Shown here one piece after another: positions 23,603-28,816 of a stretch of DNA of 31,772 bases; the first letter of the stretch is position 1, and the number at the start of each line of letters is the position of its first letter. The notes under the pieces are model-generated. The model was not told where the DNA came from and did no database searches. It worked only from the letters and a program-made list of their open reading frames with translations. Source of the DNA: a bacterium (lineage in GTDB: Bacteria > SZUA-79 > Acidulodesulfobacterales > Acidulodesulfobacteraceae); the NCBI GenBank assembly GCA_021784835.1, contig JAJYHI010000089.1, positions 1-31,772 of the forward strand, written 5' to 3'. The translations under genes and the position numbers were made by a program.

Positions 23603-25042
23603 TTAATCGGGAATATACTGCCATAAAAATTTTCCTTTCATTTTCCAGATAAATAAATAATGAAGCATATATTTAACCCAGTGTCCGGCAAGACCTATAT
23701 CTCCGAAAGTGTAATTTAAATTTCTGCCGAATTTATATTTATCGTAATTTGGAATTACCGGATACATAGTCAATAAAGCGGCCGATCCGCCGGTCATCGA
23801 TTTGCCCATAGAGGTTATACATATTGCCCCGAATTCAGCCATCGATGCGCTATAGGTGGGTTCTGCCGCTCCGTTCTTTATCATATCGATAATGGAAAGG
23901 GCGACCGTATGGCCTATGATTCCAGACGCCATGCCGGTTCTGGGAGGACTCGGAGCTATAAGAGTACCGTCCGGCGCTTTAAAAGCCTTGCTTATCGGAT
24001 GCGGGGGAGCAAAAGCTATTCCTGCCGCAAATATATTTTTATATAAAGAATTATTGTATTTTTTAGGCCAATCCGAATTTTTCCATTCCTCAAAAGGTTT
24101 TGCGCCGGAGGTATAATCGGCATCTACTTTCATAAAACCGCTAGGCACGCACATTTGGCTTTTAATATCGCTGCCGTCCTTATCTATGTATGAGATGGAA
24201 ATACCGGCAAACGGCGGAATCAGCATGGCAAAATCAAAATCGAGCGACCCTTCTTTTCCTTCAATATTAACGTAATCTAAATAGCCTTCTTTTACGTTTC
24301 TAACGTGCGCCCTGTCCACCCATTTAATGCCCTTTTCCCTAAAAGTAGACTCGGCAAAAAGTTTGCCTGATATAAAGTTTCCGTTCCTTCTTACTACCAC
24401 TCCGCCGACTCCGAAATCGCCCAGCGTAGGTTCGTTGGATATCCAAGTTATGTCCGCCATATTGCGAAGTCCCCGCTTCGCAATTTCAAATTCTAAATTA
24501 TGTATATATTCAAAAGCGGCCCCTTGGCAGGTGGCGGTTCCATGTCCAGTACCGACGACAAACTTTTGCCTTTTGCCCTTTTTCATCTTTTCTACCGCTT
24601 TCAAAAAATTATCCCTTGTTTTAACGGCATGAGGCAAACTACAGACCGAATCAGAATAGCCTTCATCCGGTCCAAGTCCCGGCGTAGCCGCAAAATTGAG
24701 CTTAGGACCCGTAGCGTTTATTAAATAATCGTACTTTACCTGTTCCGTTTTGCCGTCGTTGTATTTTACGACTACATATCGGTCGACGTCGTCCGGATGA
24801 ATCTCTTCCGCCGCTCCGTTTTTAAATTCTATGTCAAACTTTTCATATACCGGCGTAAGATCGAACTGAGTTTTTTCTGGCTTCATAGAACCCACTCCCA
24901 CCCATATCCATGAAGGGATATAAGAAAAATGTTTTCTCGGCGATATTACTACAACTTCATGTTTACGCCCCAGCGCTTTTTTTAAATTTAATGCCGCAGT
25001 GTTGCCGGCAAATCCAGAACCCAAAACTACTATGCGAGCCAT
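23603..25042 (-). CDS. sqr: Sulfide:quinone oxidoreductase-like flavoprotein
   Basis: SQR oxidises sulfide and passes electrons to the quinone pool. The 479-aa protein has the N-terminal FAD dinucleotide-binding GSGFAG (8-13), the second flavin motif YLINATGPKL (106-115), and a third region FAAGIAFAPP near 338. Candidate redox cysteines are Cys134, Cys172 and Cys408, plus Cys298; SQRs use two or three conserved cysteines. The C-terminal hydrophobic and aromatic stretch (HWVKYMLHYLFIWKMKGKFL, ending IPD) fits monotopic membrane binding. A G-rich ribosome site lies about 12 nt upstream. The family also includes flavocytochrome c-like enzymes and type II NADH dehydrogenases; the cysteine set favours SQR, but the subtype is uncertain. 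Confidence 0.82.
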   Translation of the reverse strand: MARIVVLGSGFAGNTAALNLKKALGRKHEVVVISPRKHFSYIPSWIWVGVGSMKPEKTQFDLTPVYEKFDIEFKNGAAEEIHPDDVDRYVVVKYNDGKTEQVKYDYLINATGPKLNFAATPGLGPDEGYSDSVCSLPHAVKTRDNFLKAVEKMKKGKRQKFVVGTGHGTATCQGAAFEYIHNLEFEIAKRGLRNMADITWISNEPTLGDFGVGGVVVRRNGNFISGKLFAESTFREKGIKWVDRAHVRNVKEGYLDYVNIEGKEGSLDFDFAMLIPPFAGISISYIDKDGSDIKSQMCVPSGFMKVDADYTSGAKPFEEWKNSDWPKKYNNSLYKNIFAAGIAFAPPHPISKAFKAPDGTLIAPSPPRTGMASGIIGHTVALSIIDMIKNGAAEPTYSASMAEFGAICITSMGKSMTGGSAALLTMYPVIPNYDKYKFGRNLNYTFGDIGLAGHWVKYMLHYLFIWKMKGKFLWQYIPD

Positions 25043-25310
25043 ATAAATTTATCCCCCCGTTTCTTCATTTTTTACTTATTAATAAATCTTAAAATAAAAT
25101 TTAAAAAATATTAGATTATTTTATATATATGTTTTATAATATTTATGATAGCAAAAATATAAAAATATTTCTATATAATTATAAATATATATTTGCATTA
25201 TCATATATTCATATATAACATATTTTTCTTATCGTACCGCGCATTGCCGGTTTATTGAATAAATTATAAATTTAATAAAATCAAAATATTGATTAATCTA
25301 TATTAACGCT
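25043..25310. other. AT-rich divergent intergenic region between sqr and the globin-PsiE gene
   Basis: These 268 bases are extremely AT-rich, with many alternating A/T runs and short imperfect palindromes. No gene, terminator or clear operator was identified. Promoters for both flanking genes must lie here. Confidence 0.5.
25299..25304 (+). promoter_or_regulatory. Possible -10 box directly upstream of the globin-PsiE gene
   Basis: TATATT at 25299-25304 ends 6 nt before the ATG, the same geometry as thiE and the DsbA-like gene. No good -35 hexamer is found 15-18 nt upstream, and no Shine-Dalgarno sequence is present. Confidence 0.35.
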
Positions 25311-26204
25311 ATGGAAACCCTTGATAAAATAAAGCTTATTTATTCTTTCGACGCCGGAGACGCGTCAAATTTAACGCAAATAAAAGAGCTGATGAATTCA
25401 AATGTAAACGAATTTATTTCCGGCGTTTATTCATTTATATCAAACTTCGACGATTTCAGCAAATTTCTTCCTAACGACGAAATAAGAACAAGACACAGGG
25501 AGAAGTTAAAAATCTGGTTCCTCAATCTTTTTTCCGGAAAATACGACAATGAATATTTAAGACAGTTAAAAAGAATAGGAGAGGTTCATTCGGAAATAAA
25601 ATTGCCTTCGCATTACGTAAGCGCAACAATGAATTATATAAGAAATTTTATTCATAAAATTATTTTAAAAAACATTACGTCCTCCGATAAAAGAAATGAA
25701 ATAATTGAATCCGTAAATAAAATAATAGATATTAATTTAGATATAATCATAAGTTCATATATAAATGAAGGAAAATTTTACATAGCGTCTACAAAATTTG
25801 AAACTAAAATAATAAAATTCAGTTCGAAGTTTTCTTATATGCTTGACCTTGCCCTTGTAATATCTTTAATAATTGCAACTATTATGGTTTTTCTGATGTT
25901 CTTATTTGAAATCTACAGATTCGCCTTCGGCGGCGGCGCTTTTGAATCCACCGTAGTCGATATTCTCGGCGCTATGTTAATCGTTTGGGCAATAAGAGAA
26001 CTGCTTGAAGAAGAAGTTAAAAAGCTGAAGGGGCATAAATTCGCGTTAAGCGCTTTTATAGGTCTTGCGATGGCGGCTCTTTTAAGGAAGATATTAATCT
26101 TTTCTCTGGCTTCGGGAAAATCCAAGGAAGTCGCAATATTAGGTTTCCTCGTACTGGTGCTTGGAATAGTTTACTGGCTTATGAATAAAAGCATGAAGTC
26201 GTAA
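25311..26204 (+). CDS. Protoglobin-like sensor domain fused to a PsiE-like membrane domain
   Basis: The 297-aa protein has two parts. Residues about 1-155 look like a globin-coupled-sensor (protoglobin) domain: helix content, WFLNLFSGKYDNEYL, then IGEVHSEIKLPSHYV, in which His93 sits where these proteins have the haem-ligating proximal His. Residues about 175-293 form four hydrophobic helices with VVDILGAMLIVWAIRELLEEE, matching the PsiE (phosphate-starvation-inducible E) family. The predicted order is a cytoplasmic haem sensor followed by a membrane domain, so O2, NO or CO binding could be relayed to the PsiE part. PsiE itself has no settled function. The gene is divergent from sqr. The globin call is by pattern only and haem binding is untested; confidence in PsiE similarity is moderate to good. 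Confidence 0.75.
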   Translation: METLDKIKLIYSFDAGDASNLTQIKELMNSNVNEFISGVYSFISNFDDFSKFLPNDEIRTRHREKLKIWFLNLFSGKYDNEYLRQLKRIGEVHSEIKLPSHYVSATMNYIRNFIHKIILKNITSSDKRNEIIESVNKIIDINLDIIISSYINEGKFYIASTKFETKIIKFSSKFSYMLDLALVISLIIATIMVFLMFLFEIYRFAFGGGAFESTVVDILGAMLIVWAIRELLEEEVKKLKGHKFALSAFIGLAMAALLRKILIFSLASGKSKEVAILGFLVLVLGIVYWLMNKSMKS

Positions 26205-26313
26205 ATTCGCAGGCGCAAAAGCATAAACAAAAAACTATACAGAGTTATATTTTAATTATAAGTAATTCTCAAGACAAATAATGTACGCCTGACGATTGGG
26301 ATAAAAAATTATA

Positions 26314-26342
26314 TTGCCTGCGCTTCTTATTAGTGATACAAT
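26314..26342 (+). promoter_or_regulatory. Promoter of tRNA-Pro(UGG)
   Basis: TTGCCT (26314-26319) and TACAAT (26337-26342) are spaced by 17 nt; the transcript would start about 25 nt before the mature tRNA. Confidence 0.55.
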
Positions 26343-26373
26343 AAATTACGTAATTAATTTTTCTAAAAACAAA

Positions 26374-26449
26374 CGGGATGTGGCGCAGTTGGTAGCGCAC
26401 CTGCTTTGGGAGCAGGGGGTCGCACGTTCGAATCGTGTCATCCCGACCA
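26374..26449 (+). tRNA. tRNA-Pro (anticodon UGG)
   Basis: This is a 76-nt cloverleaf with encoded CCA. The acceptor CGGGATG pairs with CATCCCG, followed by A and CCA. The anticodon arm is CCTGC / TTTGGGA / GCAGG, giving anticodon TGG. The T arm contains GTTCGAATC. The first nucleotide C1 is unusual for most tRNAs but normal for bacterial tRNA-Pro. Confidence 0.95.
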
Positions 26450-26648: not shown

Positions 26649-28574
26649 TTATAATCCAAGGGTTTTTGCTATATTTTCAAAATCGCTTTCTTTCGCTTCT
26701 ATAAAAGACGTATAGCCTTTATCTATGGATTTAAGCACATTTAAATCGGCAATATTCATCAAAATATTTTTTATTTTAATTTCGCTTTCTTTATCTACGT
26801 CCGCGTTTATGCATATAGGAAATTGAGGTATGGGGTCGGAAGATGCTATGACTTTTACCGTACTTTTATTTTCTTCCGCGGCGGAATCCATTACGCATCC
26901 GGCATCGAATTCTCCTTCCGCGACAGCCTTTATGACGACGTCGTGTCCGCCAAGATAATCGTAAGAAGCAAGGTCTTCCAATTTTATGCCTGCCGATTTA
27001 ATCATCGCTTTCGGCACCAAAGTAGAACCGGTTGACATTTTTGCGCCGAATGCGACCTTTTTGCCTTTTAAATCGTTTATAGTATTTATCGGAGAATTTT
27101 TTGCCGTTATTATTACGCTCTTATATGTGGGCGAACCGTTTTTTACCGCAAAAACTAAAGGTTTAACTCCGTATTTTTTGCCGGCGCTTAAATATGTAGA
27201 AGGGGTCATATAGCCTAACATTGCAACGCCCTTGCCTATATCTTCAACCGAATCTTCATAACTTGAAGCTACAAACGAACCAAGTTTTATCCCTAAAGAA
27301 TCGCTTAAATATTTTGTCAGAGGTTGAAATTTCGCTTTCATTATAGATGCCGCTTCTAAAGGAGCTATGCCGAATAAATATAATCTGATGTTATTAAACT
27401 CTTTTTGAAGTTCATATGCCGAATTGGAAAGCGACGTACTTATTTCGGTTGATTTTTTTGCCGTTTTTACAGTTTCTCCGGAAACTTTCTGTACGACAAG
27501 TAAATTTTTCTCTACGTCTTCGACCGCTATTTGGAGCTGTTCCGCCGATGAAGATATTATATCTATATTACTTTTCTCTTCCTTTACCGCATTCATTATA
27601 TTTCTAAATATTTCTTCTGCCGTTTTAGTTTTTTCGGATATAGCCTTTACTTCTTCGACGGAATTTTTTATAGCTTCCGCAGTCCTTGAAGTTTCTTCCA
27701 TAAGTCCTTCTATTATCTGCCTTGTGTCGGAAGTCGACTTGCTTGTTCTTTCGGCAAGTTTTTTAACTTCGTCGGCAACTACCGCAAAACCTCTTCCCTG
27801 CTCTCCGGCTCTTGCCGCTTCGATCGCCGCGTTTAAAGACAACAGGTTTGTCTGGTCGGCTATATCGCTGATAAGCGAAATAACGTCGCCTATTTCTTTA
27901 GACCTGTCGTCTAAATTCTGCATTGTTGTTTTAAGATTTTCTATAGAATCTGAAACTTTTTTGATATCGGATATTATTTCTTCTATCATTAAGTTTCCTT
28001 CTCCGGCTTTTTTAAAAGAATCGCTGGAAGAATTTTGGGCAAACTTAGCGCCTTTGGTCATTTCTTTATGAGACATGATAATTTCGTCTATTGCGCTTGA
28101 AATAGAAGAAATTTGACCGACTAAAGATTCGTTTTCTTTGTAAATTTTTTCCATTTCAGCGCTTTCTATTCTTGCATCAACGACGACGTTATTTGTAGAA
28201 TCTACAGATTTTATAAAAATATTATAAAGATTTTTAAAAAGTTCGTTTACCTTGCCGTCTAAACCGAAAAAATTAATTTGCGGCATGTTTTTGCGCAAAT
28301 CTTTATCTTTATAAAGAAAATCGTCTATGAAATTATTGATTATTTCGGCTTTTTTCTTAACAGACCTATTGATTATAAAAATGGAAAAATAAAATACGGC
28401 AGAAAAAATTACTGCAGAAACAATTAATAATTTGTCGTATCGGATTAGCGAAAATACTATAAAAAATATTGCAACTACAGCGAACAATATTGAAGTTATA
28501 ACGGTAATGTTATTAAAACGGTTTGGTTCAGTACGATCGGTATTTTTTTTGCCGGACTTAAATAAACTGCTCAT
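26649..28574 (-). CDS. Methyl-accepting chemotaxis protein with C-terminal PhnD-like binding domain
   Basis: The start is taken at 28574 because GGGAGGGG (28582-28589) lies 7 nt upstream; an earlier in-frame GTG at 28595 would place that site inside the gene. The 641-aa protein has two closely spaced TM helices (about 23-43 and 49-69) with almost no periplasmic loop, a coiled coil without an obvious HAMP, and the receptor signalling tip ([20 protein letters not shown], then [20 protein letters not shown]) near 236-275. After residue 400 comes a type 2 periplasmic-binding-protein fold like PhnD ([48 protein letters not shown]). With this topology the binding domain is cytoplasmic. It probably signals to CheA; the ligand may be phosphate, phosphite or phosphonate-like, but this is inference. 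No CheR pentapeptide is seen at the C-terminus. Confidence 0.88.
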
Positions 28575-28581
28575 AAATTTA

Positions 28582-28589
28582 CCCCTCCC
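28582..28589 (-). promoter_or_regulatory. Strong ribosome binding site that fixes the chemoreceptor start
   Basis: GGGAGGGG on the minus strand lies 7 nt before the ATG at 28574. It argues against the upstream in-frame GTG at 28595. Confidence 0.7.
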
Positions 28590-28816
28590 TCTCACGCCGC
28601 GCTTTTTGATTTTATTATGCTGTTATAAAATAAAATAATTATGACGTATTTTTATTTTCCTTCATATTTAATATATATAATAATATTTATATTAAATTTT
28701 ACAACATATATTTAAAATAATAAAGGTATTTTATTGTATGTTTATTAAAAATTAATTTTTATTTTGACTGACAGATAGGAAATTACTTTGGAATGCTTAT
28801 TTACTGGGGTTTTTAA

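Follow-up and report, generated by a model that had tools for sequence, protein, structure and literature searches.

The 31,772-nucleotide contig JAJYHI010000089.1 (assembly GCA_021784835.1) of a bacterium of the Acidulodesulfobacteraceae, hereafter the window, encodes a protein in which a Protoglobin domain is followed by a PsiE membrane domain. Sequence comparisons identify this protein as a further member of a widespread family that includes GsGCS of Geobacter sulfurreducens. It is probably a GsGCS-type globin-coupled sensor, bound to the membrane, that signals into its PsiE half, a reading in which we infer both the role of PsiE as signalling output and that of a gas as input.

Pfam assigns residues 3-155 to Protoglobin (PF11563; 106 bits against a cut-off of 25, E 2.5e-30) and residues 180-294 to PsiE (PF06146; 69.8 bits against a cut-off of 23.9, E 3.2e-19), and both assignments are unchanged when each half is searched alone. 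The protein carries two features of a globin-coupled sensor, an N-terminal Protoglobin domain and the proximal histidine (F8), here His93; a C-terminal domain, the putative output, is present by Pfam. An AlphaFold2 single-chain model built with 98 sequences gave block means of the predicted local distance difference test (pLDDT) of 84-93 for residues 11-150 and of 61-84 from residue 171 on, with a predicted template-modelling score (pTM) of 0.49. The N-terminal half is predicted to adopt a globin fold that matches known globin structures, the closest of which come from sensors or free protoglobins. Four hydropathy peaks (180-198, 210-228, 246-267 and 273-292) all lie in the PsiE half, which folds into four helices when modelled separately (pLDDT 73.5). 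A sequence-only reading of the window had proposed these two domains, the key histidine, the globin fold and the four-helix membrane half, and all of them are borne out here.

The same reading had named a PsiE output as not known to be characterised, a claim to novelty that falls because GsGCS, whose globin domain has been crystallised (PDB 2w31), is the same fusion. Full-length GsGCS (300 residues; our P0201, WP_010943923.1 according to the accessible part of PMC10724250) has the domain order, length and Pfam domains of the window protein, namely PF11563 then PF06146 within one chain of about 300 residues. The two proteins are 35% identical overall and have in common His93, His101, Tyr40, Glu230 and Arg259. 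The sensor globins AfGcHK, HemAT and DosC likewise share the globin fold and the proximal histidine with the window protein, whereas their outputs are a kinase, a chemoreceptor or a diguanylate cyclase rather than a membrane PsiE domain.

The fusion recurs widely. Both Pfam labels were found in 91 of the 99 homologues from a first search, in 119 of the 120 matches listed (129 found) from a profile search, and, as read from the list, in all 120 matches listed (1268 found) when a Geobacter member served as query. Because both labels recur across these homologue lists, the fusion is genuine and conserved and no accident of assembly. The remaining eight proteins of the first search comprise six shorter ones of 163-259 residues with one label each (P0036, P0064, P0065, P0066, P0081 and P0100) and two Protoglobin-EAL proteins (P0098 and P0099). 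The globins of the latter pair are 42% and 41% identical to that of the window, which suggests, as far as sequence can tell, that this globin branch has also been joined to a cyclic di-GMP output. When named genome contigs were scanned, the fusion was confirmed at 163 places and 80 of these were retained; their titles name Acididesulfobacter, Desulfurella, Hydrogenothermaceae, Aquificaceae, Nitrospirae, Nitrospinia, Deltaproteobacteria, a gammaproteobacterium, Geobacter and Geomonas, and the first homologue search included Thermodesulfobium and Thermodesulfovibrio, so that the fusion is present across several phyla. In the phylum of the nearest genome, PsiE was detected in 23 of the 30 genomes examined, and 24 of 25 matched PsiE places also carried globin sequence, the 25th being a 58-residue piece at a contig edge. 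The nearest genome itself (G001) encodes a second globin-coupled sensor (L003, 3-992, minus strand), with Protoglobin (E 8.9e-27) preceding an HD domain (PF13487) in a frame that runs off the 3' end of the sequence retrieved.

Conservation within the haem site was counted over 305 unique full-length fusions. His93, which aligns with the proximal histidine of sensor globins, and Phe74 are present in all 305, Trp69 and His101 in 304 each, and Tyr40 in 253. Tyr40 aligns with tyrosines of HemAT and AfGcHK that we take to be at the B10 position. The residues matching position 62 are HemAT Leu92 and AfGcHK Leu68 (numbering by count along the alignments), presumably distal residues; position 62 lies one helical turn from position 66, which is E11 in GsGCS according to the part of PMC4476040 available to us; we are unsure of the helix naming of both positions.

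It is on the distal side that the window protein departs from GsGCS. In the accessible portions of the literature, GsGCS is described as binding haem (PMC4476040, PMC3520999, PMC4686822, PMC10724250) through bis-histidyl ligation (PMC4476040, PMC3520999, PMC4686822), with His66 as the sixth ligand (PMC4476040, and the title of the original paper as cited in PMC4686822). The window protein has Leu66 in place of this haem-binding histidine and His62 where GsGCS has Leu62, and is therefore not to be assumed bis-histidyl in the GsGCS manner; given this changed pocket, the ligand preference of its branch should differ from that of GsGCS. Among the 305 fusions, histidine stands only at position 62 in 129, only at position 66 in 135, at both in 3 and at neither in 38. 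Among the named loci, those of Desulfurella, Aquificota and delta-proteobacteria share the state of the window, and the Geobacterales together with one Nitrospirota locus share that of GsGCS. We considered whether repeated switching between the two positions could be a sign of function and rejected the idea: on a FastTree phylogeny computed without columns 62 and 66, a single change suffices to account for the two states (the 41 sequences with both or neither excluded), so the near-exclusive pattern amounts to one split. The minimum rises to 15 changes if neither and both are counted as a third state, and an independent-pairs test found only 4 pairs, too few to use.

The PsiE half is, by sequence, no less conserved than the globin half. 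Across 19 representatives below 60% identity, mean identity is 0.427 in the PsiE half and 0.388 in the globin half. Twelve columns of the PsiE half are conserved at 99% or more, including the polar Glu230, Glu235 and Arg259; Gly220, Leu223, Glu230, Leu231, Phe249 and Arg259 are invariant in all 305 fusions, with Glu230 in the second membrane helix and Arg259 in the third. Stand-alone PsiE domains of the E. coli type resemble this half in exceeding the PF06146 cut-off and in having four helices, and of 40 compared, 36 share with it Gly220, 38 Glu230, 37 Arg259 and 35 Tyr288, whereas Trp226, Glu235 and Phe249 mark the fusion branch. The window protein scores 16.9 bits with the E. coli PsiE equivalog model (NCBIfam NF002763) against a cut-off of 138, and so is no orthologue of E. 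coli PsiE. Comparison of the PsiE half with solved structures gave no convincing resemblance. Our literature search retrieved no function or activity assigned to the PsiE family, and no text naming both a globin-coupled sensor and PsiE, the original GsGCS reports lying outside its coverage; the accessible text of two papers describes regulation of E. coli psiE by PhoB and cAMP-CRP (PMC4415409) and expression of PsiE from a heat-resistance locus (PMC7010813).

PsiE matches occur in 6 of 14 well-known control genomes, including E. coli and B. subtilis, and in 112 of the 297 genomes of the sample that was searched for other PsiE fusions, with loci taken from the matches listed. Thirty of these loci (L137-L166) carry no globin; 40 further PsiE places comprise 35 globin fusions, 4 cases of PsiE alone and 1 without a match to the profiles used; and eight PsiE-alone loci with long frames show no other Pfam domain. 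In the examined part of the sample, which leaves aside short frames below the top 30, three longer frames (G268:C171, G232:C36 and G370:C121) and unlisted matches, PsiE was not found fused to any domain but globin. One locus of a genome titled Sulfurihydrogenibium sp. (L098, in G008, as is L030) has a 181-residue frame that contains PsiE but lacks a globin. This frame reaches 64.6 bits with the fusion-type PsiE profile, against 20.6-38.7 for the other globin-less PsiE matches of the same search; it may be a fusion whose globin has been lost, or be of the ancestor type.

Coordinates of the features discussed are compiled below.

Features of the protoglobin-PsiE locus in the window
Feature	Coordinates	Strand	Basis
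Protoglobin-PsiE fusion gene, 297 residues, ATG start	25311..26204	+	Open reading frame call, translation, Pfam, homologues
Protoglobin (haem sensor) domain, residues 3-155	25317..25775	+	Pfam PF11563
His62 codon, distal side; Leu in GsGCS	25494..25496	+	Alignments, column counts
Leu66 codon, matching haem-binding His66 of GsGCS	25506..25508	+	Alignment; role of His66 from the accessible part of PMC4476040
Proximal His93 codon, invariant (305/305)	25587..25589	+	Column counts among full-length fusions
His101 codon, kept in 304/305, also present in the AfGcHK globin	25611..25613	+	Column counts, alignment
Predicted continuous helix, residues 125-206 (globin helix H, linker, first membrane helix)	25683..25928	+	Structure model
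PsiE four-helix membrane domain, residues 180-294, with invariant Glu230 and Arg259	25848..26192	+	Pfam, conservation, hydropathy, model
Divergent sulfide:quinone reductase-like gene	23603..25042	-	Solved-structure matches; found beside the fusion in close relatives of the window only
tRNA-Pro gene, other flank of the fusion gene	26374-26449		

How such a sensor might work can be outlined from the model, in which globin helix H runs on, as a single helix, into the first membrane helix. The globin would lie in the cytoplasm, bind haem b through His93 and presumably dimerise as in other globin-coupled sensors. Helices G and H would shift when a diatomic ligand (O2, NO or CO) binds or when the haem changes its redox state; this motion would travel along the continuous helix predicted for residues 125-206 and reach the first membrane helix; and the output would be an altered packing of the PsiE bundle around Glu230 and Arg259. 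The protein would act in cis, without a partner conserved across lineages. Several observations weigh against this proposal. The linker residues 153-164 have pLDDT values under 50, which together with the low pTM makes the continuous helix uncertain, and the relative placement of the globin and PsiE halves in the model is not reliable. The distal pocket is not uniform, since 38 of the 305 fusions lack histidine at both 62 and 66 and Tyr40 is replaced in 52. The PsiE half is the more identical half in 106 of 171 pairs, a modest excess. Finally, with no activity assigned to the PsiE family in the literature searched, the signalling role is deduced from the architecture.

A different division of labour would make PsiE a mere membrane anchor and the globin a tethered haem protein, engaged in NO or O2 handling or in electron transfer close to the quinone pool, and not a sensor. 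Many of the host names belong to sulfur-metabolising or anaerobic lineages, which would suit such a protein, as would the absence of a cross-lineage signalling partner and the bis-histidyl haem of GsGCS, in keeping with a redox protein, described in the accessible parts of PMC4476040, PMC3520999 and PMC4686822. We nevertheless regard this reading as unlikely: the PsiE half matches the globin half in conservation, with 12 columns nearly fixed, polar residues among them, and the solved globins nearest in fold come from sensors or free protoglobins. Comparably tentative is a more specific version of the sensor proposal, in which PsiE is a membrane effector, for example a small gate for ions or metabolites, formed around Glu230 and Arg259 as a pair and opened or closed by the haem.

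Gene neighbourhoods were compared by tblastn within 6 kb of the fusion, which was located in 99 of 101 sequences (the window plus 100 loci; L025 and L026 were missed). The counts are lower bounds because many contigs are shorter than the span searched; HemH, HypD, HypF and HAD neighbours were named by eye, not by profile, and single NDK, RlmN, MTAP, PurH and PurD representatives each score above the threshold of one or more NCBIfam models. The most frequent neighbours were NDK (32), RlmN (26) and MTAP (24), in delta-proteobacterial and similar metagenome-assembled genomes. A ferrochelatase-like gene occurs in 10 sequences (8 adjacent and convergent, in Geobacterales; 2 more than 4 kb away), a HAD protein in 8, HypD and HypF in 7 each, PurH in 7 and PurD in 6 (Nitrospirota, plus one Persephonella purH), ArsB in 6 and a methyl-accepting chemotaxis protein in 5. 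In six Nitrospirota loci (L054, L058, L064, L069, L072 and L076) purH and purD flank the fusion at distances of 3-40 bases, an arrangement resembling a single operon. Seven loci from the order to which Geobacter sp. OR-1 belongs (L219-L223, L225 and L226) have HypD- and HypF-like genes directly upstream and a HAD-like gene downstream. We considered nucleotide metabolism (NDK, PurH, PurD), hydrogenase maturation (HypD, HypF) and the ferrochelatase-like gene as general partners and discarded them, each being tied to single lineages. No partner gene conserved across lineages was found within 6 kb in the 99 sequences, and because each neighbour set follows its own lineage, the fusion protein most likely needs no dedicated neighbour for its function.

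In the window the fusion gene lies between the tRNA-Pro gene and a divergent reductase-like gene 268 bp away, whose best solved match is 3hyv (E 1.7e-38); its name rests on such matches, as it scores 56.2 bits against the 525-bit cut-off of one NCBIfam model. The sequence-only reading had taken this arrangement as consistent with a role in redox or gas response; the divergent gene is there, and the link to a role is weak. That the fusion might be a sulfide or redox sensor controlling the reductase gene gains something from the recurrence of the head-to-head pair in 9 of the 99 sequences, window included, but we consider it improbable. All nine fusions are at least 82% identical to that of the window; a search of the Desulfurella, Aquificota, Nitrospirota and Geobacterales loci showed no reductase close to the fusion, and this gene too is rejected as a general partner; a Pfam search of the fusion protein returned no DNA-binding or kinase domain; and the number of promoter-like sites in 24950-26400 is close to the chance expectation (12 found, 8.5 expected, standard deviation 2.5). 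Also in the window, at 26649-28595 (minus strand), is a chemoreceptor in which PF00015 (residues 215-371) precedes a C-terminal PF12974 domain (residues 408-639, E 3.1e-58), an odd order because phosphonate-type binding proteins are usually outside the cell; its relatives lie no more than 6 kb from the fusion in 5 of the 99 sequences, window included.

A haem-free globin fold sensing something else, as in B. subtilis RsbR, a haem-free sensor globin in the accessible text of PMC4476040, is very improbable: globin-like sporulation inhibitors do appear, low in the fold-match list, but the proximal histidine is invariant, Tyr40 is mostly kept, and the family member GsGCS binds haem according to the sources given above.

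The main interest of the GsGCS-type sensor proposed here lies in the role of the PsiE output and in the meaning of the changed distal pocket, and the link to GsGCS means that a crystal structure already exists for the sensor half and that a relative is available in a laboratory organism. As globin is the only PsiE fusion domain found in the examined part of the genome sample, the architecture yields a testable prediction on the type of signal that controls the PsiE domain. Should PsiE prove to be a haem-gated effector, the PsiE family would gain from the fusion its first known input, and the His62 and His66 branches would be two tunings of one switch, for example for gas and for redox sensing.
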